From positions 1 through 46,416 of the forward strand of contig ONCF01000047.1 in the NCBI GenBank assembly GCA_900316275.1: a stretch of 46,416 nucleotides of DNA, read 5' to 3'. The notes under the pieces are model-generated. The model worked only from the letters and a program-made list of their open reading frames with translations. It ran no database searches and had not been told where the DNA came from. This document shows, piece after piece, positions 13,325-31,377 of the stretch. Each line of letters begins with the position of its first letter. The stretch's first letter is position 1. The position numbers and the translations under genes were made by a program. Origin of the DNA: an uncultured Veillonellaceae bacterium (GTDB taxonomy: Bacteria; Bacillota; Negativicutes; Selenomonadales; Selenomonadaceae).

Positions 13325-14140
13325 ATGCAGGCACGCGAGAATGAATTGGTTGATTATCCGGTAGTGCGCTATGTGGCGGCCGAGGATGCGTTCGAGCCCC
13401 AGCATAAATACACCTCGATGGAGTGCTACCTCGATATCGTGCTCAACGGGCAGTCGCTGACGACGGCGTTCTGTTCGCCCGGCGACCACGCGGACCTCGT
13501 CGTGGGCATCCTCGCGCAAATGGGCAAAATCCGCACCTTCGCGGACGTCACGCGCCTGGACATCGATGAGGAGGCGCTGCGGGCGACCGTGGAGACAACA
13601 CCGGAGGCGCAAGTCTTTGCGGCGCAGGCAGCCACGGACCCGCGTTACTACCGCGCGCGGCAGATACTGGACTGCGACCCGGAGCAAATTTTTGAGCGGC
13701 CGCGCGATGTGCGCTTTGTAGCGCGGGATATCCTCGCCACGGCGGACCACCTGCTCGCCGAACTTGCGGCCACGCATGAAAAGACGAACGGCGTGCACAG
13801 CGGCGTCCTCTACGACCAGCGGGCGCGGCAAATCCTCGTGTTCCGCGAGGACATCGGCCGCCACAACGTCTTTGACAAGCTCTACGGCTGGAGCCTGCGC
13901 CACGGCGTGGACATCACGGATAAAATCATCGTGTTCAGCGGGCGCTGCTCGTCGGAAATGATGTTGAAGCTCGGACGCATGGGTATCGCCGCCGTAGCCG
14001 CGAAATCCGTGCCTACGACGCTCTCGCTGGCGCTGGCCGAGAAGCTTGGCATCACGCTCTGCGCGCGCATGGCGCCCGGCAGTTTCTGCGTCTACACGCA
14101 TCCCGAGCGCATCGTGCTCGACTTGCCGACTGAGCAGTAA
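13325..14140 (+). CDS. fdhD: Formate dehydrogenase accessory protein FdhD, atypical
   Basis: Protein of 271 aa in the FdhD family, whose members pass sulfur from a cysteine desulfurase to the molybdenum/tungsten cofactor of formate dehydrogenase. Family segments are clear: FCSPGDHADLVVGIL (residues 49-63), NGVHSGVLYD, FREDIGRHNVFDKLYGW, IIVFSGRCSSEM and the C-terminal SFCVYTHPERI. The family's usual CxxC sulfur-relay motif is not found; only a lone Cys117 (ILDCDPEQIF) lies in the expected region. Either one Cys is enough here or the mechanism differs. Formate dehydrogenase genes follow 107 bases downstream, supporting the role. AGGGAGG precedes ATG 13325. Confidence 0.82.
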   Translation: MQARENELVDYPVVRYVAAEDAFEPQHKYTSMECYLDIVLNGQSLTTAFCSPGDHADLVVGILAQMGKIRTFADVTRLDIDEEALRATVETTPEAQVFAAQAATDPRYYRARQILDCDPEQIFERPRDVRFVARDILATADHLLAELAATHEKTNGVHSGVLYDQRARQILVFREDIGRHNVFDKLYGWSLRHGVDITDKIIVFSGRCSSEMMLKLGRMGIAAVAAKSVPTTLSLALAEKLGITLCARMAPGSFCVYTHPERIVLDLPTEQ

Positions 14141-14247
14141 AATTTTAATATACTTTTTTTCAATCGGTTTTATAAACGAAAGTTATCAGGCAGAACCCAG
14201 CGTAGCGCTGGTTCATATATAGTGTATTTTTTAAGGAGGAGAAATTG

Positions 14248-17200
14248 ATGGAATTAAGCAGACGTGACTTCCTCAAGGCCTCTGGTCTCGCCAGCATCGG
14301 CGCGGCTCTGGCCAGCCTCGGCATCGACATGCCGAAAGTCAAGGCGGCTGCCAAAGAGTTCAAACTCAAAGGCGCCAAGGAATTTACCTCTATCTGCCAT
14401 TTCTGTGCCTGCGGCTGTGGTGTCGTCGGCTCGGTCAAGGATGGCAAGCTCATCAATCTCGAGGGCGATCCCGACAGCCCGATCAACCGCGGCGCGCTCT
14501 GCAGCAAGGGCCTAGGCTATGGCCAGGTGCCGAACTCCAAAGAGCGCGGCACGAAACCCCTGTACCGTGCGCCGGGCAGCGACCATTGGGAGGAAATCTC
14601 CTGGGACGAGGCTATCGACAAGGCCGCCCATGCGTTCAAACGGGCACGTGACAACAACTGGCGCGCCACGGAGAACATCGACGGCCGCGAAGTGCGCACG
14701 AACCGCACGGACGCCATCGGTTTCATCGGCGGCTCGCAGGTCAACAACGAGGAGTGCTATCAGCTCATCAAGATGACGCGCGGCCTCGGTGCGGTCTACA
14801 CGGACAACCAGACGCGTGTCTGCCATGCGACGACGCCGCCCGCGATGGGTGCTGCTTTCGGCCGTGGCGCCATGACGGGCTCCTGGATGAACATCAAGGA
14901 TGCGAAACTCATCTGGGTCGAGGGCTCGAACCTCGCCGAGTGCCATCCGATGGGCCTCAAGAACGTCATGAAAGCCAAGGAGAACGGCGCGAAAATCGTG
15001 CACGTCGACATGCGCTTTACGCGTACCTCCAAAATTGCCGATAAATTCCTGCAGATTCGTCCCGGTACGGATATCGTCTTCCTCGGAGCAATCATCAACT
15101 ATATCATCCAGAACAAGAAATTTGACGAGGACTATCTGCGCCGCAACACGAATGCGTTCTGCCTGCTGCGTCCGGACTTCGGTTTCCAGGACGGCCTGTT
15201 CTCGGGCTACAACGAGGCGACGCGTTCCTACGACATGACGACCTGGGGCTACGACCTCGGTCCGGACACGAAGCCGCAGAAGGCCAGCGATATCTTCGCG
15301 CCGCACACGGTCATGAGTGTCATGAAGGAGCACTACAGTCGCTATACATTCGAGATGGCCGAGAACATCACGGGCATCCCGGCGGCGGAAATCAAGGCGG
15401 CGGCAGAGCTGTTCAGCAGCGTGCGCCCGGCCATCTTCATGTATGCGCTCGGCATGACGCAGCACACGGTCGGCGTGGAGAACATCCGCTGCTTTACCAT
15501 CCTGCAGCTGCTCATGGGCAACGTGGGCCGTGCGGGCACGGGTATAGACGCCATGCGCGGGCAGCCGAACGTGCAGGCCTCGACGGACTTCGCCATCGAG
15601 TTCAACTGCCTGCCTGGCTACCTTGACTATCCAACGGAAAAGACGGATACGTTCAAGAAATGGGAGGAAAAGAGCGGCACGTTCCGTTCGAAGTTCCTGC
15701 GCAACACGTTGCTCGCGTGGTACGGTGAGCATGCGACGGCCGAGAACGACTACGGCATGAAGTTCCTGCCCATTCGCAACAGCCATCACAACGACTCCAT
15801 TTACGGCCTGTTCGATGAGGCGAACCTCGGCACGGTGAAGTGCATCTACGTGACGGGCCAGAACCCGGCGGTCACGAATGCGAACCTCACGCTCGTGCAG
15901 AACGGCCTCAAGAAAATCGACTCGCTCATTTGCCAGGATATCTTCATCAACGAGACGGCAGAGTTCTGGAACAAGCCGGGCGAGAACCCGAAAGACATCC
16001 AGACCGAGGTTATCTACCTGCCGGCCTGCTCGTACCTCGAGCGTCGCGGCTCCATCACGAACTCCATGCGCCTCGTGCAGTGGCGGCAGGAGGGCCCGGC
16101 CCCGCTCGGCGACTCCAAACCTGACTACTGGATTTGCAACCAGATCTGGCGCCGCATCGTGGAACTCTACAAGGACTCCACGGACCCGAAGGATGACCCG
16201 ATTAAGTTCATGACTTGGAACTACTCTGATGACCACACGGTCGAGGATATCCTCAAAGAGGTTAACGGCTACGACCTGACGACGGGCAAGCTCTTAAACG
16301 GCATCCGTGAGATCAAGGCGGACGGCACGACGAATAGCGGCATGTGGATCTACGCCGGTGTCTACGGTGGCGGGCAGTCTCTGCCGCAGCGCCGTGAGCA
16401 GGACGACGAGGGCGACCGCGGCATTTATCCGCACTACGCCTGGTGCTGGCCGGACAACATCCACATGCTCTACAACCGCGCTTCGTGCGATGAAAAGGGT
16501 CAGCCGATTGACCCGGACAAGAAGCTCGTCTGGTGGGATGCCGCCAAGGGCGAGTGGGACGGCTACGATGTGCCGGATGTCGGCAACCGCAAGGCCGGCC
16601 CGGATACGCCGGACGGCCAGAAGCCTTTCCGCATGAACGGCGAGGGCATCGGCCGCCTGTTCGCTGCGAACTACACGGACAAGAACCCCGACGGCACGTC
16701 GCGAGACCACTCCAGCACGCCGGTCGATGGTCCGCTGCCCGAGTTCTACGAGCCGGTCGAGAGCCCGACGCAGAATGCGCTGCATAGCAATAAAGACGCC
16801 CAGTACAATCCGTGCTGCATTTATCCGCGTGTACCCGAGCTGCAGCCGAAAGTCGGCACGCCGGACGAGTTCCCGTATGTGCTCACGAGCTCCGGTATCG
16901 CTGAGCACTGGTGCTCCGGTACGGTCACGCGCAATATCCCCTGGCTGAACGAACTCGTCAAGGAGCCGTTTGTCGAGATGAGCGAGCCGCTCGCCAAGCA
17001 ACTCGGCGTCAAGGGTGGCGACAAGGTGAAGGTCCGTTCTGCGCGTGGCGAGGTACAGGTCAAGGCCATGGTCACGAAGCGCATCAACCCGCTGAAAATC
17101 AACGGCAAGGAGACGCATATGGTCTGGATGCCGTACAGCTGGGGCTTCAAGGGCCTGTCCAAGGGCCCGTCCACGAACTACCTGACCATCGACGCGCTAG

Positions 17201-17259
17201 ACCCGAACGTGCAGGAGCAGGAGTTCAAAGCCTGCCTCGTCGATATCAAGAAGGCCTGA
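14248..17259 (+). CDS. fdnG: Formate dehydrogenase alpha subunit, Cys form, Tat-exported
   Basis: Catalytic subunit of 1003 aa, close in length to E. coli FdnG, oxidising formate at a bis-molybdopterin-guanine-dinucleotide Mo or W centre. The N-terminus carries a twin-arginine signal, SRRDFLKASG at residue 4, so the enzyme should face outside the inner membrane. A [4Fe-4S] site follows: Cys50, Cys53, Cys57 and a fourth Cys in ALCSKG. At the active-site position, NQTRVCHATTPP, codon TGC (14821-14823) encodes Cys192, where FdnG-type enzymes often have selenocysteine followed by His. Start: ATG 14248 after AAGGAGGAG; a TTG three bases earlier is too close. It heads an operon with fdhE, beta and gamma genes. 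Mo versus W use cannot be settled from sequence. Confidence 0.94.
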   Translation: MELSRRDFLKASGLASIGAALASLGIDMPKVKAAAKEFKLKGAKEFTSICHFCACGCGVVGSVKDGKLINLEGDPDSPINRGALCSKGLGYGQVPNSKERGTKPLYRAPGSDHWEEISWDEAIDKAAHAFKRARDNNWRATENIDGREVRTNRTDAIGFIGGSQVNNEECYQLIKMTRGLGAVYTDNQTRVCHATTPPAMGAAFGRGAMTGSWMNIKDAKLIWVEGSNLAECHPMGLKNVMKAKENGAKIVHVDMRFTRTSKIADKFLQIRPGTDIVFLGAIINYIIQNKKFDEDYLRRNTNAFCLLRPDFGFQDGLFSGYNEATRSYDMTTWGYDLGPDTKPQKASDIFAPHTVMSVMKEHYSRYTFEMAENITGIPAAEIKAAAELFSSVRPAIFMYALGMTQHTVGVENIRCFTILQLLMGNVGRAGTGIDAMRGQPNVQASTDFAIEFNCLPGYLDYPTEKTDTFKKWEEKSGTFRSKFLRNTLLAWYGEHATAENDYGMKFLPIRNSHHNDSIYGLFDEANLGTVKCIYVTGQNPAVTNANLTLVQNGLKKIDSLICQDIFINETAEFWNKPGENPKDIQTEVIYLPACSYLERRGSITNSMRLVQWRQEGPAPLGDSKPDYWICNQIWRRIVELYKDSTDPKDDPIKFMTWNYSDDHTVEDILKEVNGYDLTTGKLLNGIREIKADGTTNSGMWIYAGVYGGGQSLPQRREQDDEGDRGIYPHYAWCWPDNIHMLYNRASCDEKGQPIDPDKKLVWWDAAKGEWDGYDVPDVGNRKAGPDTPDGQKPFRMNGEGIGRLFAANYTDKNPDGTSRDHSSTPVDGPLPEFYEPVESPTQNALHSNKDAQYNPCCIYPRVPELQPKVGTPDEFPYVLTSSGIAEHWCSGTVTRNIPWLNELVKEPFVEMSEPLAKQLGVKGGDKVKVRSARGEVQVKAMVTKRINPLKINGKETHMVWMPYSWGFKGLSKGPSTNYLTIDALDPNVQEQEFKACLVDIKKA

Positions 17260-17308
17260 GTGGCGCAGCGCATTAGCGCGTAAAGCTTAGGAGAAGAAGG
17301 AGAGTCTT

Positions 17309-18172
17309 ATGCAAACGAAGCCCGAAGCCATGCTCGCTGAACATCTGCAAGCCCATCCGTTCCTGCAGGAGACCGCCGAGCTCTACACGGAACTGACGGC
17401 GGCCGTACAGGCGGCCGTCGTGCCGGCGGCCCTGCCGGAGGCGGAGGCGTGCGCGGCCCTGGTCCAGGACGGCGTGCCCCTGCTGCAAAATAAAGAGCTG
17501 CAGGCTACGTTCGTCAAGGTCGCAGCCGCGGCGCTGCCCGAGGTGCTGGCTGCCTGCCAAAAGCGGGAACTGCCAGAGGCGGTGCATAAAGCCGTGGCCG
17601 ACTGGGCCATTTGGTCGGACGAGGCTGGCCGCAAAGAGGTGCAGCATTTCTTCCAGCTGCTCCTGCAGCAGCAGGACGCGGAGGTGGCACTCTTTGCGGC
17701 GCAGGCGAAGCTGCCGGTGACGGTGCTGCGGCTCGTGGGCTGGGACATCGTCGAGGCGCTAGTGCCCGGCGAGCTCAAGCAGGCCGCGTTCTGGACGGAG
17801 CACGGCTGGCAAAAGAACTATTGCCCCGTCTGCGGCCGCCAGCCGGTCATGGCGCAGCTGAAAAAGGAGAGCGAGGCCAACGGTGCCGAGCGTTTCCTCA
17901 GCTGCGGCGGCTGCCATACGCAGTGGCATTTCACGCGTATCGGCTGCGTCTACTGCGGCAACAAGGACACGGAGCAGCTGCCCATTTTTATCCCCGATGA
18001 CGGGCAGGTGCGCCTCGATACCTGCAACAAGTGCCGCAGCTACATCAAGACGTATGTGGGCCACGGCCAGGAGCAGGTGCTGCTGCAGGACTGGGCGACG
18101 CTGCATCTCGACGTACTCGCCGAGGAAAAGGGACTCTCGAAACACGGCAATGTAATCGTAGCGCAGGAGTGA
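17309..18172 (+). CDS. fdhE: Formate dehydrogenase accessory protein FdhE
   Basis: Protein of 287 aa. The C-terminal half has the rubredoxin-like zinc/iron-binding cysteines of FdhE: CPVCGRQP, CGGCHTQW, CVYCGNKD and CNKCRSY. FdhE is needed for maturation of respiratory formate dehydrogenase in enterobacteria, probably in checking or loading the exported alpha subunit. It lies between the alpha and beta genes, an uncommon but logical place. The N-terminal 150 residues are helical and Ala-rich with weaker family similarity. AGGAGAAGAAGGAG lies before the ATG. Confidence 0.9.
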   Translation: MQTKPEAMLAEHLQAHPFLQETAELYTELTAAVQAAVVPAALPEAEACAALVQDGVPLLQNKELQATFVKVAAAALPEVLAACQKRELPEAVHKAVADWAIWSDEAGRKEVQHFFQLLLQQQDAEVALFAAQAKLPVTVLRLVGWDIVEALVPGELKQAAFWTEHGWQKNYCPVCGRQPVMAQLKKESEANGAERFLSCGGCHTQWHFTRIGCVYCGNKDTEQLPIFIPDDGQVRLDTCNKCRSYIKTYVGHGQEQVLLQDWATLHLDVLAEEKGLSKHGNVIVAQE

Positions 18173-18203
18173 ACAGTACTCCAGCGCGAAAGGAGATAGA
18201 ATC

Positions 18204-19007
18204 ATGGCAAAAGAAATGGCTATGCTGCACGACATTTCCCGCTGCAGCGGCTGCCGCGCCTGCATGGTCGCCTGCAAACAGTGGCACGACCTGCCGGCCG
18301 ACATGAGCACGCCCTTCAACGGGCAGTATCAGTCCCATGATGACCTGACGCCGACGACGCTGAACCTCGTGAAGTTCAACGAGACGACGGATGACCAGGG
18401 CAAGTTCCGCTGGGATATCATCAAGGTGCAGTGCATGCACTGCGGTGACCCGGCCTGCCGCAACGGCTGCCCGGAGAACGCGATTGCGAAACTGGACAGC
18501 GGTGCGGTCGTTATCAACGAAGACCAGTGCGTCGGCTGCGGCTACTGTGCGAAGAACTGCCCGTTCGGCGTGCCGAAAATCGACGGCATCACGCACAAGT
18601 CCAAGAAGTGCGACCTCTGCTTTGACCGCATCCAGGAGGGCCTCGTGCCCTCGTGCGCCAAGACGTGCACAGCGGACGCCATCAGCTTCGGCACGAAAGA
18701 GGAGATGGAGAAGCTCGCCCAGGAGCGTCTCGAGGTCGTGAAGCAGTCGTTCCCGAACGCCCAGCTCTACGGTGTGGGCGACAACAAGGTCGGCGGCAAC
18801 CACATGATGTACGTCCTCACGGACAAGCCGGAGAAGTTCGGCCTGCCTGCCGACCCGGCGAATCCGAGTTCTATCAATATGTGGAAGGATGTCGTGCGTC
18901 CGGTCGGCCAGCTCGCCGGCATCGGCGCTGTCGCGGGCATCGTCGGTATGGCGGCCGTCGCGAAGTTCCGCAAGGACCGCATGGATAAAAACAAAAAGGA
19001 GGGCTGA
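18204..19007 (+). CDS. fdnH: Formate dehydrogenase beta subunit, [4Fe-4S] ferredoxin type
   Basis: Electron-transfer subunit of 267 aa. Cysteine groups for four iron-sulfur clusters are visible: CSGCRACMVACKQW, CMHCGDPACRNGCPENA, CVGCGYCAKNCPFG and CDLCFDRI with CAKTC. A hydrophobic helix near the C-terminus (about residues 232-252) is followed by a basic tail, the single membrane anchor seen in FdnH-like subunits. It passes electrons from the alpha subunit to the cytochrome b subunit encoded two bases downstream. Confidence 0.93.
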   Translation: MAKEMAMLHDISRCSGCRACMVACKQWHDLPADMSTPFNGQYQSHDDLTPTTLNLVKFNETTDDQGKFRWDIIKVQCMHCGDPACRNGCPENAIAKLDSGAVVINEDQCVGCGYCAKNCPFGVPKIDGITHKSKKCDLCFDRIQEGLVPSCAKTCTADAISFGTKEEMEKLAQERLEVVKQSFPNAQLYGVGDNKVGGNHMMYVLTDKPEKFGLPADPANPSSINMWKDVVRPVGQLAGIGAVAGIVGMAAVAKFRKDRMDKNKKEG

Positions 19008-19009
19008 CG

Positions 19010-19675
19010 ATGGCAAAGCTCAAATATTTGCCGCGTCACAAGAAGGGCTTTATCATCTGCCACTGGCTGAATGGTATTTCTTTTCTCATGCTCTTCCTGA
19101 CGGCTCTGCCGCTCTACGTGCCGAGCCTCAGCGGCTTTTATCACGCCGTCGGTCCCCACGCGTTCCAGCTCGCGCACCGCTTCTTTGCCTGCGTGTTCAT
19201 CGCGACGCCGCTTATCGGTCTCTTTATCGCCCGTGAGGGCTACGCCACGCTGTTCCGCGAGGCGACGCATTTCACGAAGGATGATATGGAGTTCCAAAAG
19301 AAGTTCCCGGCGGAGCTCATTGGCGGCGAGCCGGATCTGCCGCCGCAGGGCTTCTACAATGGCGGCGAGAAGATGAACATCCTGCTGCAGGTGGGCCTCT
19401 GGTGCGTACTCGTGGCGTCTGGCCTTGTGCTCTGGCTGGGCACGGATCTGCCGCAGTCGCTGCAGGCCTGGGCTATCCCCATCCACAGCATCGCGGGCGG
19501 CTGCGGTTTCGCGGCGGCGCTCGGCCACATTTACCTGGCGCTCGGTGTGAACCCGGATTCGTTCCAGGGCATGAAGGACGGCACGGTAAAGACGGAGTAT
19601 GCGGTGCATCATCACGGCAAGTGGGTGGACGAGCTCGTCGCCGCGGGCAAGGTCGACCGCAAGGACATCGAGTGA
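19010..19675 (+). CDS. fdnI: Formate dehydrogenase gamma subunit, cytochrome b
   Basis: Membrane cytochrome b of 221 aa with about four hydrophobic segments. Histidines suited to bind two b hemes are His18 (ICHWLNG), His56, His159 and His173; the last pair keeps the 14-residue spacing of E. coli FdnI. It would accept electrons from the beta subunit and reduce menaquinone. It closes the alpha-fdhE-beta-gamma operon. No clear terminator follows before the next promoter, so some read-through into the cofactor riboswitch region is possible. Confidence 0.92.
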   Translation: MAKLKYLPRHKKGFIICHWLNGISFLMLFLTALPLYVPSLSGFYHAVGPHAFQLAHRFFACVFIATPLIGLFIAREGYATLFREATHFTKDDMEFQKKFPAELIGGEPDLPPQGFYNGGEKMNILLQVGLWCVLVASGLVLWLGTDLPQSLQAWAIPIHSIAGGCGFAAALGHIYLALGVNPDSFQGMKDGTVKTEYAVHHHGKWVDELVAAGKVDRKDIE

Positions 19676-19691
19676 TGTGTGACGAATGTTA

Positions 19692-19720
19692 TCGACAAAA
19701 CAATAAAAACATGATACAAT
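19692..19720 (+). promoter_or_regulatory. Promoter of the Mo/W cofactor operon
   Basis: TCGACA (19692-19697), a 17-base spacer and TACAAT (19715-19720) with a TG extension before the -10 box. Transcription would start about 19727, just before the riboswitch. Confidence 0.65.
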
Positions 19721-19737
19721 AAGAACCAAGAAAAGCG

Positions 19738-19853
19738 ACTCCGAGCAAAGATGTGCTAAGGTTTCAGTACTACGCCATCGCGCCGGGGAGGTGGGGGAAA
19801 CGCCGCCTCCTTCCATGTTGAAAAGGGGCTGCTGGATAGGGAAAGACTATCTG
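19738..19853 (+). promoter_or_regulatory. Moco/Tuco-type molybdenum (tungsten) cofactor riboswitch
   Basis: The leader carries features I recognise from the Moco RNA motif: CTCCGAGC near the 5' side, GCCATCGCGCC, a strong helix GGAGGTG/CGCCTCC closed by a GGGGGAAACGC loop region, and a final GAAAAGGGGC. A 9-position outer helix can form between AGCGACTCC (5' side) and GGGGCTGCT (3' side) with one mismatch. The segment between CTCCGAGC and GCCATC is short, which fits the compact form without the P3 stem proposed to sense the tungsten cofactor (Tuco). The downstream genes make and import exactly this cofactor or its metal. Class is fairly secure; Tuco subtype is tentative. Confidence 0.75.
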
Positions 19854-19854
19854 G

Positions 19855-19900
19855 AAGACTGTCCTTTTGCGTGCGTCGCAGAAGGGCAGTCTTTTCTTTT
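19855..19900 (+). terminator. Riboswitch-controlled terminator of the cofactor operon
   Basis: A 17-bp stem, AAGACTGTCCTTTTGCG (19855-19871) with CGCAGAAGGGCAGTCTT (19877-19893), has a five-base loop and a TTTTCTTTT tail. It follows the aptamer directly, which suggests transcriptional attenuation when cofactor is plentiful. AAGACT also occurs 12 bases before the left arm, a possible competing pairing partner. Confidence 0.8.
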
Positions 19901-19910
19901 GCGGTACTCC

Positions 19911-20099
19911 GCCGCTGGGGTGTCCCCCGACTACGCTAAGTAAATTTGCTACGGCAAAAATTTTTCCGGGAATTAATCCTTAAAAACGACTTAAACGCGC
20001 TGCGCTTGAACGAAAGTCATTTTTAGAGGAAGCTAGTCGGAAAAATTTTTGCCGCTTAACGCAAATTTCCAACGCTTCGTCGGGGGACACCCCAGCGGC
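19911..20099. repeat. Long quasi-palindrome, copy A1 (subfamily II)
   Basis: A 189-bp inverted repeat. The outer arms, 21 bp each and perfect (19911-19931 and 20079-20099; left arm begins GCCGCTGGGGTG), are unrelated to those of other copies. Inside are the shared core pieces GCAAATTT, AAAAATTTTTCCG, GGATTAATTCC and a loop containing CGTTCAAGCG (read on the reverse strand). The inner stem CGGCAAAAATTTTTCCG pairs perfectly with its partner. It lies in the leader of the cofactor operon after the riboswitch terminator, so it is also present as RNA when the operon is on. Confidence 0.85.
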
Positions 20100-20119
20100 T
20101 CCGAGGTAAGCGCGCCGCA

Positions 20120-20295
20120 GGGGAAAGGCTGAACGTAGCGTTGAAGATTTCCGTTAAGAAAGAAAATTTTTTCTACTAGAACCCTCGTAAAAGTAGTTTC
20201 GTTCAAGCGAAGCGCGTTTAACTACTTTTACAGGATTAATTAAAAGAAAAAATTTTCTTTTAGGAAATCTTCTCAGCGGAGTTCAGCCTTTCCCC
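20120..20295. repeat. Long quasi-palindrome, copy A2 (subfamily I)
   Basis: A 176-bp inverted repeat with 15-bp perfect outer arms (GGGGAAAGGCTGAAC at 20120-20134; complement at 20281-20295). The core carries CTAGAACCCTCGTAAAAG, a perfect middle stem GTAAAAGTAGTT/AACTACTTTTAC and the loop CGTTCAAGCGAAGCGCG. It is 20 bp from A1 and in the opposite orientation as judged by its loop. It ends 35 bases before the chosen start of the first cofactor gene. Confidence 0.85.
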
Positions 20296-20330
20296 GGAGG
20301 CCTGTGAGTTATATGCTGGGGGATGACCAT

Positions 20331-21362
20331 ATGAAAGAAATGAAAACCGTCGACGCAGTGGGACAGATTTTGTGCCACGACATCACGCAGATTATTAAGG
20401 GTGTGACGAAGGACGCGCGGTTCCGCAAGGGGCATGTGATTACGTCGGAGGATGTGCCGGTGCTGCTCTCGCTGGGCAAGGACCACATCTTTATCTGGGA
20501 GAACGACGAGACGATGCTGCACGAGGATGAGGCGGCGGCGGTGTTGCGCGATTTATGCATCGGTGAGCATATGGAGGCGTCGGCACCAAAGGAGGGCAAG
20601 ATTGAGCTCCGGGCGACGTGTGACGGCGTGTTCCAGGTGGATGAGGCGCGCTTTGATGCGGTAAATGCGCTGGATGAGGTGACGATTGCGACGCTGCCGC
20701 AGAATTTCCCCGTGAAGAAGGGGCAGAAGCTCGCGGGCATGCGCGTCATTCCGCTGGTGATTAAGAAGGATAAGATGGCGGAGGTGCAGCGCGTGGCGGG
20801 GCAGGGGCCTTTGCTGCGGCTGCGGCCGTACCGTACGGACCTGAAGGTTGGCGTGGTGACGACGGGCACGGAGGTGTACCTCGGGCGTATCAAGGATACG
20901 TTCACGCCGGTGATTGAGGGCAAGCTGAAGCGCTTCGGGCTCACGATTAACGAGCACCGCCTGTCGGACGATGTGAAGGAGCACACGGAGGCAAATATCC
21001 GCGAGCTGCTGGAACTCGGCATGGACCTTATCCTCTGCACGGGCGGCATGAGTGTGGACCCGGACGACCGCACACCGGCCGCGATTCGCGATGCGGGGGC
21101 GGAGATTGTGACGTACGGCGCGCCGGTGCTGCCGGGCGCGATGTTCCTGCTGGGGTATTTTCAGCGCGACGGGCGCACGGTGCCGGTCATGGGCCTGCCG
21201 GGCTGCGTGATGTATGCGCAGGCGACGGTGTTTGACATGGCCCTGCCGCGCATTCTCACGGGCGAGCGCCTCACGCGCCAGGAGATCCGCCACTGGGGCA
21301 TCGGCGGTCTCTGCCAGGGCTGCCCGACCTGCCACTACCCCGTCTGCGGTTTCCAACATTGA
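20331..21362 (+). CDS. MoeA-like molybdopterin-binding protein
   Basis: Protein of 343 aa with a molybdopterin-binding (MoCF) fold: VGVVTTGTEVYLGR, LILCTGGMSVDPDDRTPAAI and MGLPGCVMY. It starts with DAVGQILCHDITQIIKG, as in clostridial MoeA-like proteins found with molybdenum hydroxylases. The C-terminus has a conserved-looking cysteine cluster, LCQGCPTCHYPVCGF. ATG 20331 follows GGGGGATGA and matches the family N-terminus; a GTG at 20304 and ATG at 20313 lie upstream in frame. True moeA is next, so this is a distinct paralogue, probably acting in cofactor handling or metal insertion. First gene after the riboswitch and two palindromes. Confidence 0.85.
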   Translation: MKEMKTVDAVGQILCHDITQIIKGVTKDARFRKGHVITSEDVPVLLSLGKDHIFIWENDETMLHEDEAAAVLRDLCIGEHMEASAPKEGKIELRATCDGVFQVDEARFDAVNALDEVTIATLPQNFPVKKGQKLAGMRVIPLVIKKDKMAEVQRVAGQGPLLRLRPYRTDLKVGVVTTGTEVYLGRIKDTFTPVIEGKLKRFGLTINEHRLSDDVKEHTEANIRELLELGMDLILCTGGMSVDPDDRTPAAIRDAGAEIVTYGAPVLPGAMFLLGYFQRDGRTVPVMGLPGCVMYAQATVFDMALPRILTGERLTRQEIRHWGIGGLCQGCPTCHYPVCGFQH

Positions 21363-21378
21363 GTGAGAGTATCCTCTT

Positions 21379-21427
21379 GGCCCCCTCCGCAGAGGGGGCT
21401 GTCGCCGACAGGCGACTGGGGGTGTCC
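21379..21427 (+). repeat. Small double-hairpin GC-rich repeat-like element
   Basis: Two adjacent hairpins, GCCCCCTC/GAGGGGGC (21380-21387, 21392-21399) and GTCGCC/GGCGAC (21401-21406, 21411-21416), then TGGGGGTGTCC. This looks like an intergenic repeat type seen in many anaerobic Firmicutes genomes, as I recall. It sits between two cofactor genes just before the moeA ribosome site. TGGGGTGTCC also occurs in the arm of copy A1. Confidence 0.5.
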
Positions 21428-21442
21428 TTGAGGAGATATGTT

Positions 21443-22648
21443 ATGCAAGATTTATCTTTAGAAAAGGCCCGCGAGGTCATACTCGCGCACGCGCCGCAGC
21501 TCACGGCGACGGAGCAGGTGCCGCTCTTGGACGCGCTCGGGCGCGTACTGGCGGTGGATGTCACGGCGGCGTTTGACAATCCGCCTTTTGATCGTTCGCC
21601 GCTCGATGGCTACACGTTCCACTATGCGGCGACGGCGGGGGCGAGTGCGGCGCAGCCGGCCGTGCTGGATGTTATCGGCGAGGAGTGCGCGGGCGACTAC
21701 TACGCGCAGGCCGTGCCCGCGGGTAAAGCCGTGCGCATCATGACGGGCGGTGCCATCCCGCAGGGCTGCGACTGCGTCGTGCGGCAGGAGAGCGTGCAGG
21801 TGGAGGGCGACAAACTTTTCGTACCGTTCGAGACGCACGCACACGAAAATTACTGCTTTGCGGGCGAGGATGTGGCTAAAGGCACGGTCATCGCCCACGC
21901 GGGCGAGTGCCTGACAGCGGCGCATCTCGGCGTCATCGCGAGCATGGGCTACGCGGCCGTGACGTGTTACCGCCCGCTGCGTATCGCGCTCGCGAGCACG
22001 GGCGACGAGCTGCTCGCACCGGGCGAGCCCTTGCGCCCCGGCAAAATCTACAACAGCAATCTCTACATTCTCGCGGGACGCCTGCGGGAAATGGGGTTCC
22101 AGTCACAGCTGCTGGGCATTTTACCAGATGATGTGGATGCGGCGGCCACCGTGGTGGCGGAGAAAGCGAAAACTGTCGACCTGTTCCTCACGACGGGCGG
22201 CGTGTCCGTCGGCAAAAAGGACATCCTGCACGGCGTGGTGCAGGCGGTCGGCGAGCGCCTGTTTTGGCGCGTCTGCATGAAGCCGGGCGGCCCGGCCATC
22301 GCCTACACGGTGGGCAACACGCTGGGGATTGCGCTCTCGGGCAATCCGTTTGCGAGCTATGCGACGTTCGAGTTGCTCGCGCGCCCCGCCATGGCCCGGA
22401 TGAGCCGGCGCACGGACCTCGCGCTTACGCAGCGCACGGTCACGCTCGCCGATGCCTTCCCGAAGGTCAGCCGCGGGCGGCGTTTTATCCGCGCCCGCGT
22501 GACGCCGGACGGTCAGGCGCATCTGCCGCAGCAGCATGCCTCGGGCAGTCTGGCCTCCGTCGTCGGCTGCAACGCATTCCTCGACATCCCAGCTGGCAGC
22601 GACCCGCTGCCTGTGGGGAGTCAGGCCACCGCAGTGATGCTTTTTTAA
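21443..22648 (+). CDS. moeA: Molybdopterin molybdenumtransferase
   Basis: MoeA of 401 aa inserts molybdate or tungstate into adenylylated molybdopterin. Visible segments are FDRSPLDGYTFH near the N-terminus (normally PFDNSAMDGYA), IMTGGAIPQGCDCVVRQE, STGDELLAPGEPLRPGKIYNSN, TTGGVSVGKKD and the C-terminal domain with LSGNPFAS. ATG 21443 follows GAGGAGAT; the open frame extends 84 bases upstream through the double-hairpin repeat, which is unlikely to be coding. moaA follows 12 bases downstream. Confidence 0.93.
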   Translation: MQDLSLEKAREVILAHAPQLTATEQVPLLDALGRVLAVDVTAAFDNPPFDRSPLDGYTFHYAATAGASAAQPAVLDVIGEECAGDYYAQAVPAGKAVRIMTGGAIPQGCDCVVRQESVQVEGDKLFVPFETHAHENYCFAGEDVAKGTVIAHAGECLTAAHLGVIASMGYAAVTCYRPLRIALASTGDELLAPGEPLRPGKIYNSNLYILAGRLREMGFQSQLLGILPDDVDAAATVVAEKAKTVDLFLTTGGVSVGKKDILHGVVQAVGERLFWRVCMKPGGPAIAYTVGNTLGIALSGNPFASYATFELLARPAMARMSRRTDLALTQRTVTLADAFPKVSRGRRFIRARVTPDGQAHLPQQHASGSLASVVGCNAFLDIPAGSDPLPVGSQATAVMLF

Positions 22649-23653: not shown

Positions 23654-24589
23654 ATGAATACGCAGGGAATTATCAAAGCACTTTGCACGAGCGAGAAGAA
23701 GGGGACACTAAAGCAGCCGGTGGACGAGGCCTTTTTCGTCACGGAGTACGGCGTGCGCGGCGATGCGCATGCGGGCAAATGGCACCGCCAGGTCAGCCTG
23801 CTTGGCGAGCAGGAGATTATCGACTTCCGCAAAAAGGGCGTCGATGTGAAGTTCGGCGCTTTTGGCGAAAATATCGTGGCCGACGGTTTCCATTTCCGCG
23901 ACCTGCCCATCGGCACGCGCCTGCGCGCCGGTGATGTCGTGCTCGAGATCACGCAGATCGGCAAGGAATGCCACAAGAGCTGCGCTATCCGCACGCAGGT
24001 CGGCGACTGCATCATGCCACGCGAGGGTGTCTTTGCCCGCGTGCTGCACGGCGGCACACTGCGTCCGGGCATGGAGCTCGCGGTCACGACGGAGCCTATC
24101 ATCATGGACGCGGCCGTTATCACGGCCAGCGACAAGGGCAGCCGCGGCGAGCGCGAGGACAAGAGCGGCCCCGAGGCCGCGCGCATCCTGCAGGAGGCGG
24201 GCTACACGGTCGTCGACAGTTGCATCCTGCCCGACGAAAAAGACGTGCTCGCGGCCCAGATGTGCGCCTACGCCGACCTTGGCATCGGCCTCATCGTCAC
24301 GACGGGCGGCACGGGCTTCTCTGTGCGCGACGTGACGCCTGAGGCCACGCAGGAGGTCTGCGAGCGCATGGCCCCCGGTATCGCCGAGGCCATGCGCAGC
24401 CTCTCCATGCAGGTCACGCACCGCGCCATGCTCAGCCGCGCCACGGCCGGCCTCACGCGCCGCTCGCTCATCGTCAACCTCCCCGGCAGTCCGAAAGCCG
24501 TCGCCGAATGCCTCGGCTTCATCCTGCCCGAGCTCGCCCACGGCCTGCAAATCCTGCGCGGCGACACCGCCGAGTGCGCCCGCAAATAA
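23654..24589 (+). CDS. MOSC domain-MogA/MoaB fusion protein
   Basis: Protein of 311 aa with two domains. Residues 1 to about 150 form a MOSC domain: YGVRGDAHAGKWHRQVSLL, FGAFGENI and GKECHKSCAI with a possible sulfur-carrying Cys. Residues about 153-311 form a MogA/MoaB molybdopterin adenylyltransferase: AAVITASDKGSRGERED, TTGGTGFSVRDVTPEAT and NLPGSPKAV. MogA adenylylates molybdopterin so that MoeA can insert the metal; MOSC domains handle sulfur or bind cofactor. Such fusions are known in anaerobic Firmicutes. It begins three bases after moaA with AGGAGG upstream. Confidence 0.92.
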   Translation: MNTQGIIKALCTSEKKGTLKQPVDEAFFVTEYGVRGDAHAGKWHRQVSLLGEQEIIDFRKKGVDVKFGAFGENIVADGFHFRDLPIGTRLRAGDVVLEITQIGKECHKSCAIRTQVGDCIMPREGVFARVLHGGTLRPGMELAVTTEPIIMDAAVITASDKGSRGEREDKSGPEAARILQEAGYTVVDSCILPDEKDVLAAQMCAYADLGIGLIVTTGGTGFSVRDVTPEATQEVCERMAPGIAEAMRSLSMQVTHRAMLSRATAGLTRRSLIVNLPGSPKAVAECLGFILPELAHGLQILRGDTAECARK

Positions 24590-24668
24590 AAGTTCCCCAC
24601 AAGCAGGCAGGAGCCCTGCTTTGCACGCACACGGACGTGCGGCCTATAGTGTCGAAAGGAAGATGTAC

Positions 24669-25490
24669 ATGTTCAACCTGCACCGCAAACTCACGACCGC
24701 TGCGCTCCTTACGGGCGTGCTCCTCATGCTCGCCGGCTGCGGCGGCCAGTCCGCCACGACCAGCAGCTCCTCGTCCTCCTCGGGGGCGGGCGAGCAGAAA
24801 GTCCTGCACGTCTCGGCGGCGGCCAGCCTCACGAACGTCATGCAGGACATCGCGGCCGACTACGAAAAGCAGCATCCTGACGTGAAAGTTGAATTCAACT
24901 TCGGCAGCTCCGGTGCCCTGCAGCAGGCCATTGAGAATGGCGGCAACACCGACGTCTTCGTCTCGGCCGCGCAGAAACAGATGAACGCGCTGGAAAAGGC
25001 GGGCCTGCTCGCCGATGGCACGCGCGCTGACCTGCTCGTCAACGACGTCGTGCTCATCGTGCCGCAAGACAGTAAAAAGAACATCGCCAGCTTTGAAGAC
25101 CTGAAGAGCGACGCCGTGCAGCACCTCGCACTCGGCGAGCCGAAGGGCGTCCCAGTCGGCCAGTACTCCGAGGAAATCTTCACGAAGATGAACATGCTCG
25201 ACGCCATGAAGGCCAAGGCCGTCTACGGCTCCGACGTGCGCCAGGTCCTCGCCTGGGTCGAGGGCGGTGAGGCCGACGCCGGCCTCGTCTACGCCACGGA
25301 TGCCGCCATCACCGACGGTGTCAAGGTCGTCGCCAAGGCCCCGGCCAACACGCACAAGCCCATCATCTACCCAGCCGCAGTGCTCAAAGACTCCAAGCAG
25401 CTTGAACTGGCAAAAGACTTCGAGCAGTTCCTCAAGAATGATACGAGCAAAGCCTTGTTCGAGAAGTATGGTTTCACGATGGCTAAGTAA
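24669..25490 (+). CDS. modA: Molybdate/tungstate-binding lipoprotein ModA
   Basis: Solute-binding protein of the ABC importer, 273 aa. It has a lipoprotein signal with lipobox LAGC (Cys24), a Ser-rich linker of about 20 residues, then the ModA fold: LHVSAAASLTNVMQDIA, FNFGSSGALQQQ-like GSSGALQQAI and DVFVSAAQKQMNAL. Binding residues expected from family are Ser in AAASL and Ser in GSSG. ATG 24669 is preferred (eight bases after AAGGA); ATG 24663 is too close to the site. Separation from modB by 479 bases of palindromes is unusual. Confidence 0.94.
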   Translation: MFNLHRKLTTAALLTGVLLMLAGCGGQSATTSSSSSSSGAGEQKVLHVSAAASLTNVMQDIAADYEKQHPDVKVEFNFGSSGALQQAIENGGNTDVFVSAAQKQMNALEKAGLLADGTRADLLVNDVVLIVPQDSKKNIASFEDLKSDAVQHLALGEPKGVPVGQYSEEIFTKMNMLDAMKAKAVYGSDVRQVLAWVEGGEADAGLVYATDAAITDGVKVVAKAPANTHKPIIYPAAVLKDSKQLELAKDFEQFLKNDTSKALFEKYGFTMAK

Positions 25491-25506: not shown

Positions 25507-25710
25507 GAGGCAGGGCAGGCGGCGAGGGCAACTGCATTCCGCTGAGTAAATTTGCTACAGGAAAAATTTTTCCGGGAATTAATCCTTAAAAAAGACTTAA
25601 ACGCGCTTCGCTTGAACGAAAGTCATTTTTAGAGGAAGCTAGTCGGAAAAATTTTTCCTGCTTAACGCAAATTTCCAACGCTGCATGCAGTCACCCTCGC
25701 CGCCTGCCTC
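25507..25710. repeat. Long quasi-palindrome, copy B1 (subfamily II)
   Basis: An inverted repeat of about 204 bp directly after modA. Outer arms of 23 bp (25515-25537 and 25685-25707) match with two differences, and GAGGCAG/CTGCCTC lies beyond them. The core is nearly identical to A1, but the inner stem is CAGGAAAAA/TTTTTCCTG instead of CGGCAAAAA/TTTTTGCCG: both sides changed together. Loop sequence CGCGCTTCGCTTGAACG. Confidence 0.83.
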
Positions 25711-25747
25711 TACGTTTGTGGCAATTTACGCCGCTAGCTTTTAGGGA

Positions 25748-25942
25748 GGCCGCAGGGGTGGGCAACATAAGCGAAGCGTTGAAATTTTGCGTTAAGAAAG
25801 AAATTTTTTCCTACTAGAACCCTCGTAAAAGTTTCAACCGTTCAAGCGCAGCGCGTTTTGGAACTTTTACAGGATTAATTCTTGGAAAAATTTTCTTTTA
25901 GCAAAATTTCTCAGCGTAGCGTTGTTGCCCACCCCTGCGGCC
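25748..25942. repeat. Long quasi-palindrome, copy B2 (subfamily I)
   Basis: A 195-bp inverted repeat with 19-bp perfect outer arms (GGCCGCAGGGGTGGGCAAC at 25748-25766; complement at 25924-25942). The core matches A2 and C: AAGCGAAGCGTTGAAA, CTAGAACCCTCGTAAAAG, ACTTTTACAGGATTAATT. It lies 37 bp after B1, again in opposite orientation, and ends 27 bases before the modB start. Confidence 0.85.
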
Positions 25943-25969
25943 GGGGCTGGTACTCAAGAGGGAGGTCAT

Positions 25970-26647
25970 ATGGATATTTCACCATTGTTGATATCGTTGA
26001 AAACTGCGCTGGCGGCGACGGCGATTACGTTTTTTGCGGGGATTGGCCTCGCGTTGCTTGTGGCGCGGCTGCGGCGGGGGCAGGGGCTCGCGGACGCCAT
26101 TATCACGCTGCCGCTCGTGCTGCCGCCGACCGTCGTGGGCTACTTTCTGCTGCTCACCTTCGGCCGCCGCAGCGCCATCGGGCAGTTTTTGTTGCAGACG
26201 TTTGACGTGAGCATCGTCTTCAGCTGGCCCGCCGCCGTCATCGCAGCCGTCGTCGTCTCCCTGCCGCTCATGTACCGCACGGCGCGCGGCGCCTTTGAAC
26301 AGCTCAATCCCGACATCATCGCCGCCGCGCGCACGCTCGGCGTCTCTGACTGGCGCATTTTCTGGCACATCCTCATCCCGAACACGCGCGCGGGTATCCT
26401 CGCGGGGCTCGTGCTCGCCTTTACGCGCGCGCTCGGCGAATTCGGCGCCACCATCATGTTCGCCGGCAACATCCCCGGTGTCACGCAGACCATGAGCACA
26501 GCCATCTACGCTGCCGTGCAGGCCAACGACTACGACCTCGCGGGGCAGTGGGCCCTCATTATCGTGGCGTTTTCCTTCTTCTTTGTCGGTCTCATGAACT
26601 GGTGGACGGCGCGTCTGAACCACGGTGTACGGCAGGGGGTGCTCTGA
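25970..26647 (+). CDS. modB: Molybdate ABC transporter permease ModB
   Basis: Membrane permease of 225 aa with about five hydrophobic segments. The EAA-type loop that contacts the ATPase is seen in ARTLGVSDWRIFWHILIP, and the ModB-typical LPLVLPPTVVGYFLL lies near the N-terminus. ATG 25970 has GAGGGAGGT upstream; the open frame reaches back into palindrome B2 but that part is not coding-like. modC follows with one base between stop and start. Confidence 0.94.
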   Translation: MDISPLLISLKTALAATAITFFAGIGLALLVARLRRGQGLADAIITLPLVLPPTVVGYFLLLTFGRRSAIGQFLLQTFDVSIVFSWPAAVIAAVVVSLPLMYRTARGAFEQLNPDIIAAARTLGVSDWRIFWHILIPNTRAGILAGLVLAFTRALGEFGATIMFAGNIPGVTQTMSTAIYAAVQANDYDLAGQWALIIVAFSFFFVGLMNWWTARLNHGVRQGVL

Positions 26648-26648
26648 C

Positions 26649-27890
26649 ATGCAGCTGAAAGTTGACATCACGAAAAAACTGCGCAACTTCACCCTGCACG
26701 CCAATTTCACCATGCAGGACGAGGTCTTCGCCCTGCTCGGCGCCTCAGGCTGCGGCAAAAGTATGACGCTGAAATGTATAGCGGGCCTCGCGACACCCGA
26801 TAGCGGCCACATCGAGCTCGACGGCCAAGTGCTCTACGACAGCGCTCAGGGCATCGACCTGCCGCCGCAGGCGCGCCACATCGGTTACCTGTTCCAGTCC
26901 TATGCGCTGTTCCCCAACATGACCATCCGCGAAAATATCCGCTTCGTGGCCGTGGGGACGCCGGAGGAAAAGGAGCAGAAAATCGCGGCCGGTTTGCGCC
27001 GCTTCCACCTCGAGGAGTTGGCGGACGCCTATCCCGCTGAACTCTCGGGCGGCCAGCAGCAGCGCGCGGCGCTCGCACGCATCCTTGCGGCCGACGCGAA
27101 ACTGCTGCTGCTAGACGAGCCGTTCTCCGCGCTCGACAACTACCTGAAATGGCAGCTCGAGCTCGAGCTGCTCGACGTGCTGCAGGCCTACAACGGCGCG
27201 GCCATCTTTGTCTCACATGACCGCGGCGAGGTCTACCGCCTCGCCGACCGCGCGGCCGTCATCTCCCGCGGGCAGATGGAGGCCCCGCGCCGCCGCCAGG
27301 AGCTCTTTCACAATCCCGGCACGCTCGCGGCCACTGTGCTCACAGGCTGTAAAAACGTCTCGGCGGCACAGGTCACAGACCAAAGCAATGCGGTGGTAAC
27401 CACCGCAGAATTCTCGTCAACTGCCAGCTCGGCGGTGGAGAATATTGGTCAGCAGTCAGGCGGCATGTCGCAGGTGGAGGCCACGGACTGGCAACTTATG
27501 TTGCAGGTGGAAACAGTGCCACGATTTGTGCGTTATGTAGGTGTCCGTGCGCATTTCCTCGCTTTCTGCGCGTCGGGTGACGTCACACAGGTCGAGGCCG
27601 CGCAGACCTATCGTAATGCGCTGGCACAGGGCGGGGGAGACGAGGCAGCAGCGGACGCTGTACAACGGCCTATCGTACCAGCCAACATCCAGCGCCTGCA
27701 GGTCACGCGCGTCATCGAGGACGTCTTTTCCTACCTCGTCATGGTGCGCCGCGCGGGCGCCCCCGAGGCGCGCCCGCTGCGCTGGGAACTGCCCAAGGCC
27801 GACTGGCACCATATCGCTCCCACGCTGCCCGCCGACCAGACCCTCTGGCTCTACTTTCCGCCCGACAAAATCATGCTGATGGAGCAGTGA
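26649..27890 (+). CDS. modC: Molybdate ABC transporter ATPase ModC, unusual C-terminus
   Basis: ATPase of 413 aa, longer than the usual 350 or so. The ATP-binding domain is complete: Walker A GASGCGKSMTLK, signature LSGGQQQRAALARI, Walker B LLLLDEPFSALD and switch His in FVSHDRGEVY. After about residue 235 comes a Ser/Thr/Gln-rich segment (about 240-280) with lower GC than its surroundings, and then a divergent region in place of a clear molybdate-binding MOP/TOBE domain; VTRVIEDVFSYLVMVRR and TLWLYFPPDKIML resemble TOBE strands. Metal sensing by this part may be altered. Last gene of the mod operon. Confidence 0.9.
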   Translation: MQLKVDITKKLRNFTLHANFTMQDEVFALLGASGCGKSMTLKCIAGLATPDSGHIELDGQVLYDSAQGIDLPPQARHIGYLFQSYALFPNMTIRENIRFVAVGTPEEKEQKIAAGLRRFHLEELADAYPAELSGGQQQRAALARILAADAKLLLLDEPFSALDNYLKWQLELELLDVLQAYNGAAIFVSHDRGEVYRLADRAAVISRGQMEAPRRRQELFHNPGTLAATVLTGCKNVSAAQVTDQSNAVVTTAEFSSTASSAVENIGQQSGGMSQVEATDWQLMLQVETVPRFVRYVGVRAHFLAFCASGDVTQVEAAQTYRNALAQGGGDEAAADAVQRPIVPANIQRLQVTRVIEDVFSYLVMVRRAGAPEARPLRWELPKADWHHIAPTLPADQTLWLYFPPDKIMLMEQ

Positions 27891-30984: not shown

Positions 30985-31061
30985 AGGAAGCTCCTTTCGT
31001 AGAGATGAAATTATGGGGAGAGTTTGAGGGAACCCACGTACAAGAACGCCGATTTGTGGCA

Positions 31062-31322
31062 GGCAACTGGCGGTATAGCATAAGCGAAGCGTTGAAAATT
31101 TGCGTTAAGCAAGAAAAAATTTTCCGACTAGAACCCTCGTAAAAGTTTCAACCGTTCAAGCGAAGCGCGTTTTTACTGACCTGTCCAAGAATGCGAGCGT
31201 CAGCGAAGCATGATTGGCTAACAGGTCGTATGCACCGCTGGAACTTTTACAGGATTAATTCCCGGAAAAATTTTTCTTGTAGCAAATTTTCTCAGCGTAG
31301 CGTTGCTATACCGCCAGTTGCC
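31062..31322. repeat. Long quasi-palindrome, copy C (subfamily I) with a loop insertion
   Basis: A 261-bp inverted repeat in the 444-base gap between the PAP2 and symporter genes. Outer arms of 19 bp are perfect (GGCAACTGGCGGTATAGCA at 31062-31080; complement at 31304-31322). The core matches B2 closely. About 65 bp are inserted in the loop (roughly 31175-31239), bounded inside by GACCTGT (31178-31184) and ACAGGTC (31221-31227), a smaller inverted repeat. The inner stem has CAAG/CTTG where other copies have CAGG/CCTG or CGGC/GCCG. The rest of the gap shows only the symporter terminator. Confidence 0.85.
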
Positions 31323-31377
31323 GTTGCGGAGCCCTATCGGATATGAGGTATTATATCACTTTATGTAAAGTTTTTGT

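Follow-up and report, generated by a model that had tools for sequence, protein, structure and literature searches.

The window, that is, the whole stretch of 46,416 nucleotides analysed here, stems from an uncultured member of the Selenomonadaceae and carries a formate dehydrogenase (fdh) gene cluster, a structured leader and a seven-gene operon for molybdenum cofactor (Moco) synthesis and molybdate uptake (Table 1). The fdhA product falls in TIGR01553 and its catalytic position reads RVCHATT, which makes it the Cys type that a first-pass annotation of this DNA had recognised next to the leader. That annotation had also described a complete cofactor and metal uptake operon downstream; the operon is there and includes modABC, but it is not complete, MoaC and MoaD/E being absent from its seven genes. 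MobA/MobB are encoded on another contig of the genome. The open reading frame listed for the first operon gene starts at a GTG (20304), and the ATG given in Table 1 has GGGGGA upstream and agrees with the start in another genome of the genus (G003).

Table 1. Features of the leader and its flanking genes, in window coordinates
Feature	Position	Strand	Basis
fdhD, fdhA (Cys-type, TIGR01553), fdhE, fdhB, fdhC; upstream context, outside the leader's control	13325-19675	+	
Predicted sigma-70-type promoter, TCGACA-17-TACAAT, TG before the -10 hexamer	19692-19720	+	10/12 consensus matches
Moco-motif aptamer, P3-less	19727-19844	+	RF01055 match; covariation among 24 distinct P3-less relatives
P1 5' strand (AGCG.CUCC), partner 19825-19833	19734-19742	+	RF01055 alignment, folding
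P2 arm, 19750-19756 with 19774-19779; CUAAGG...UACG receptor-like internal loop	19750-19779	+	folding; covariation
GCGCC junction straight into P4; expected site of P3, P3 absent	19780-19784	+	alignment, junction classification
P4 hairpin, GAAA tetraloop 19797-19800	19785-19812	+	folding; covariation
Predicted antiterminator, 19822-19829 with 19861-19868, around hairpin 19832-19839/19847-19854	19822-19868	+	folding; recurrence in relatives
P1 3' strand; shares positions with antiterminator 5' strand	19825-19833	+	folding
Predicted intrinsic terminator, 17 bp (19855-19871 with 19877-19893) and T tract	19855-19900	+	stem search, RNA folding
Long foldback repeat element A in leader; genomic repeat family, no part of the switch	19911-20099	.	
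Long foldback repeat element B in leader	20114-20301	.	
MoCF-domain molybdopterin-binding protein; operon gene 1	20331-21362	+	PF00994 6e-23
moeA; ORF from TTG 21359, likely start ATG 21443	21359-22648	+	
moaA	22661-23650	+	TIGR02666 369 bits, cut-off 284
MOSC-MogA fusion	23654-24589	+	profile matches
modA	24621-25490	+	TIGR01256 199 bits, cut-off 62.5
modB	25922-26647	+	TIGR02141 234 bits, cut-off 183
modC-type ATPase	26625-27890	+	TIGR02142 186 bits, below cut-off 285; position

The foldback elements belong to a family that also occurs in the window at about 25510-25920 and about 31060-31330, in about 20 places of the genome altogether (44 match rows, both strands) and in the sister species G001. 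Their core of about 150 nt is 70-95% alike between copies, and their arms of 15-25 nt are copy-specific, unrelated between copies and near-perfectly complementary within a copy (for example GCAGGGGCCGACAGACCACAC/GTGTGGTCTGTCGGCCCCTGC at L139). Two pairs lie within the operon, one in the 5' leader and one between modA and modB.

A search of the 46 kb on both strands with all of Rfam returned a match to the Moco motif (RF01055) of 43.4 bits (E 3.5e-7), above the curated gathering score of 36 bits and the only match to this model in the 2.19-Mb genome. The Moco-type riboswitch proposed in the first-pass annotation is therefore present within the span given for it, except that the motif begins some 10 nucleotides before the start assigned (19738); the landmarks named there lie at 19739-19746 (CTCCGAGC) and 19774-19779 (GCCATC). 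The absence of stem P3, proposed at the same time, is borne out by the alignment, in which the model's P3 columns have no counterpart. The remaining anatomy is that of the Moco motif, with a GAAA tetraloop of the GNRA type on P4 and its receptor in P2, which is one base off the usual UAUG (UAC versus UAU). Among 24 distinct P3-less moeA-type leaders, 88% of pair cells hold standard pairs and 54 cells are changed on both sides, compared to 17.3 +/- 3.4 in shuffles, of which 0/500 reached 54; slid controls gave at most 16 both-sided changes, and shifting the partner by one column lowered pairing to 49%. The signal sits in P2 (helix 2, 5/6 pairs changed on both sides) and P4 (helix 3, 6/11 pairs), with P1 nearly invariant, so that covariation in P1 is neutral as to class membership. 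The junction and the core nucleotides of P1, P4 and P5 do not vary across 25 leaders, and each of the four genomes of the genus carries exactly one P3-less RNA, before the orthologous operon. The window RNA is a genuine member of the Moco class, with P3 missing and a covarying fold, and lies, as is typical of that class, upstream of Moco synthesis and molybdate transport genes. In a genome of another genus (G060, locus L163), a P3-less RNA, cofactor genes, mobA, fdhD and an fdh operon form one run, with fdh on the downstream side of the riboswitch; in the window fdh comes first, and the leader separates it from the cofactor genes.

Several elements point to a switch acting on transcription. 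The promoter-like site between fdhC and the aptamer, with 10 of 12 positions matching where shuffles average 0.3 such sites, might allow the leader to be transcribed on its own, apart from the fdh operon. The 17-bp terminator that the first-pass annotation had placed right after the aptamer, as an indication of transcriptional control, was recovered both by a dedicated stem search and by RNA folding and is directly followed by TTTTCTTTT; a simple consensus scanner did not report the 19855-19893 stem. That it belongs to the upstream fdh operon was considered and rejected, because the stem sits 3' of the riboswitch and has a 5' arm that complements the P1 strand, and because the predicted promoter separates fdhC from the aptamer. 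As the nascent transcript grows, its predicted fold changes from a P1 type to the antiterminator at 138-160 nt and finally to the terminator. For the 156-nt transcript, antiterminator pairing beats the best P1-containing fold by 10 kcal/mol, and in the full-length leader the terminator fold is the most stable. Taken for the window leader by itself, the antiterminator match exceeds chance only modestly (p of about 0.04 in one shuffle test), so that the argument is borne by its recurrence in relatives. A terminator was detected in 21 P3-less moeA-type leaders, and 17 of these have an equivalent pairing, as AAAGGGGC/GUCCUUUU and AAAGGGGUA/UAUCCUUUU; one pair differs on both sides between the window's genus (GGGGC/GUCC) and genus g16 (GGGGUA/UAUCC). 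In the G003 leader the antiterminator is weak in folding.

By prediction, the leader as such combines an intrinsic terminator with an antiterminator that overlaps P1, the defining parts of a terminating riboswitch, and the pairings are predicted to be mutually exclusive. Without ligand, the P1 3' strand region would pair with the 5' arm of the terminator and transcription would read on; with ligand, P1 would be kept closed, the terminator would fold and transcription would end before the first gene. The window leader would hence be an OFF switch, acting via transcription termination, for the cofactor-synthesis and molybdate-uptake operon, a direction suggested by the leader anatomy and by analogy with the E. 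coli result (Regulski 2008, PMC2408646). A different layout is seen in P3-less RNAs linked to AOR genes (L055, L059, L061, L062, L066), where the P1 3' strand (AAAGGAAGUCC) is itself the terminator 5' arm, so that ligand binding would block termination; judged from these sequences, they would be ON switches for tungstoenzymes, opposite to the OFF design of the window.

The first-pass annotation had suggested that the RNA is perhaps the tungsten cofactor (Tuco) form. In the accessible text of Regulski 2008 (PMC2408646), P3-less RNAs are tied to the tungsten cofactor by the presence of tungsten-indicating genes, mainly tupA/tupB or wtpA, in 17 of 19 carrier organisms, and, within that text, a response to Tuco over Moco is directly demonstrated for no P3-less RNA. 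The same text reports that the P3-containing RNA of E. coli ignores tungstate and that deletion of P3 abolished its regulation, which implies that RNAs lacking P3 must depart from it in some other respect as well, possibly specificity. A review (PMC9971707) names the P3-less variants WCo, and later reviews carry a separate tungsten-cofactor riboswitch, citing the 2008 work (PMC2408646).

As tungsten markers we took those of Regulski 2008, tupA/tupB or wtpA, and added AOR; TupB was called at E <= 1e-20 rather than at the NCBIfam cut-off, because TupB matches fall below that cut-off even beside AOR and tupA. Neither AOR (PF01314) nor TupB or WtpA was found in the window's genome or its genus (G000-G003). 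The transporter of the window operon consists of ModA and ModB, both above their NCBIfam cut-offs, and the genome encodes NarGHJI, with NarJ, and NapA, the latter assigned from its best NCBIfam match, below that model's cut-off. NarG and NapA are molybdenum enzymes. ModABC transporters can carry tungstate as well, so that missing Tup, Wtp and AOR are no proof that tungsten is not used; formate dehydrogenase can use tungsten too, and the Cys-type enzyme, fitting either metal, does not decide between them. An in-frame TAG near position 1591 interrupts the narG gene (L156, G000:C32, 2-3778), where sister species G001 has an open frame; misassembly or a recent mutation could explain it. Compared to the published Tuco assignment, which asks for P3 absence, for linkage to molybdopterin (MPT) synthesis genes or Tuco enzymes and for tungsten markers, the window RNA lacks P3 and is linked to MPT synthesis genes together with modABC, with no known tungstoenzyme in its linkage and no markers in its genome.

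Outside the family, a class-level sample contains eight genomes with P3-less RNAs; AOR and/or TupB are present in seven of them, and the RNAs often lie ahead of AOR or tupA. With 7/8 for P3-less versus 0/2 (Fisher p 0.067) this small sample agrees with the published rule and says no more. Within the family the situation is different. Among 189 Selenomonadaceae genomes, 81 contain the 132 classified RF01055 matches, whose P3 state was called from the junction before P4; 47 are P3-less, located before the MoCF-moeA operon (27), modA (19) or tupA (1). Of the 47 family genomes with P3-less RNAs, 46 were free of AOR, TupB and WtpA, while the outside-family sample has 1 such genome among 8 (Fisher p 3e-7, a value overstated because the genomes are related). 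Incompleteness does not explain the missing markers, since 25 of the 47 family genomes reach a completeness of 91% or more. AOR and TupB occur together in only 2/189 family genomes and WtpA in 0/189; of those two, G025 has a single P3-less RNA, located before tupA (NF041772), and G026 has a P3-containing one.

The two forms coexist in 19 genomes. In genus g16 the P3-containing RNA precedes modABC and the P3-less RNA the moeA operon, whereas in genus g13 the 19 P3-less RNAs precede modA and P3 is present in both RNAs ahead of the moeA operon (G042 and G140, the latter 81% complete with 5% contamination, which makes the single-genome case for the g13 swap weaker there). Four modA leaders of g13 keep P3 and are otherwise alike (G144 versus G149), near-identical flanks enclosing GACGUUGAGCC[P3]GGG versus GACGUUGAGCCGGGG. 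P3 presence thus does not track gene role and is nearly swapped between the two genera, so that a fixed Mo/W split by P3 would need the cofactors to trade roles between them. In the aptamer-core tree (79 columns), the distances place 41 of the 42 distinct P3-less sequences of the family closer to P3-containing RNAs of the family than to the AOR/tupA-linked group; only the G025 RNA, a differing form with a GACCAAUGGG junction, comes closest to the Tuco group. The moeA-type P3-less leaders, including that of the window, form a clade (97% SH-aLRT), and the AU test leaves a single P3-less clade unrejected (p 0.75), which limits the claim to closeness to the P3-containing RNAs. A separate loss of P3 within the Selenomonadaceae is likely, not proven, from these trees.

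Taken together, we read the window leader as a P3-less Moco sensor and transcriptional OFF switch for the cofactor-synthesis and modABC operon, with a probability of roughly 0.6. The Tuco proposal is not supported, because the one testable element of the published assignment, the tungsten markers, is missing. We infer that the molybdenum cofactor is the most likely ligand, that the loss of P3 is here no sign of tungsten sensing and that the RNA lacks selectivity for tungsten; it is probably not tungsten-sensing, though it may still respond to tungsten, since ModABC can carry tungstate.

A less likely alternative, which nonetheless belongs with the best readings of the leader, is a pyranopterin-cofactor sensor indifferent to the metal, which would recognise the Mo or the W form and for which P3 would be a dispensable peripheral stabiliser. 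It would account for both RNA forms at orthologous modA and moeA leaders in one family, for both at the same modA leader in g13 and for the lack of a consistent gene role of P3; however, the E. coli P3-containing RNA, according to Regulski 2008 (PMC2408646), ignores tungstate and needs P3, which means that the class can discriminate metals and that P3 can matter. Quite improbable is a true Tuco riboswitch in which P3 loss shifts selectivity and the tungsten cofactor represses the operon: the missing stem, the 17/19 correlation of Regulski 2008 (PMC2408646), the outside-family marker count and the RNAs before AOR or tupA speak for it, but the markers are missing from genome, genus and nearly all P3-less family genomes, NapA and NarGHJI are encoded, and the tupA-linked G025 RNA differs while the other 41 distinct cores side with the P3-containing family RNAs. 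A decayed or constitutive leader, with an aptamer that binds nothing and a terminator that fixes low expression, is hardly credible, as its score among the weaker above-cut-off matches in the family, the UAC receptor and the two foldback elements inserted between terminator and gene are outweighed by the invariant junction and core, the strong covariation and the switch pairing kept in relatives.

The riboswitch class itself is known, and the window RNA is a new member of it; its family context is of greater interest than this one RNA. The split into P3-containing (Mo) and P3-less (W) RNAs is a correlation from 2008 based on 19 organisms with P3-less RNAs, and it appears to fail in the Selenomonadaceae, given P3-less RNAs without tungsten markers in dozens of relatives. 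On balance we consider a missing P3 an unreliable sign of the tungsten cofactor, the family having lost (or regained) P3 in molybdenum-type leaders, so that metal discrimination, if any, would sit elsewhere in the aptamer. This suggests that annotators should not deduce tungsten metabolism from an absent P3. The 46 marker-free P3-less RNAs, the near-identical pairs with and without P3 and the 19 two-form genomes constitute a natural test set, which makes Mo versus W discrimination by Moco RNAs directly testable.

Moco RNAs were also found at unexpected genes. In genus g9 (L052, L053, L060, L224, L235, L265, L271, L272, L276, L279) they lie directly upstream of [NiFe] hydrogenase genes (TIGR00391 hydA, 405 bits, at L053), with a long P3; P5 is elongated in most of them. 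Hydrogenase is no Mo/W enzyme, and these RNAs may represent a variant that senses a different ligand, or the link may be indirect. At L203 a Moco RNA lies upstream of a TonB-dependent receptor gene (PF00593 and PF07715, looked up for L203 alone), possibly an outer-membrane uptake route for a metal or cofactor precursor; L190, L194, L209 and L241 group with L203 by RNA similarity.

Compared to the Moco motif (RF01055; Regulski 2008, PMC2408646), the window RNA shares P1, P2, P4, P5, the GAAA tetraloop and the junction, as well as the position upstream of moeA, moaA and modABC, and terminator-type platforms have already been described for the class. It differs in having no P3, with at most 2 nucleotides in its place between GCC and GGG, and an unpaired lower P2 (AAA against GCG), the latter also found in the P3-containing RNAs of the family. 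With the Tuco/WCo variants (PMC2408646, PMC9971707) it has the missing P3 in common; those sampled are mostly associated with AOR or tup genes in marker-containing genomes, unlike the window's genome, and usually have a fully paired P2 and UGCAAAG where window-type RNAs have UUGAAAAGG, so that the window core resembles the P3-containing RNAs of its own family rather than these variants. With transcription-terminating riboswitches the leader shares three overlapping pairings, the terminator 5' arm being common to the antiterminator, and it is unusual only in the extra hairpin (19832-19854) within the antiterminator loop.
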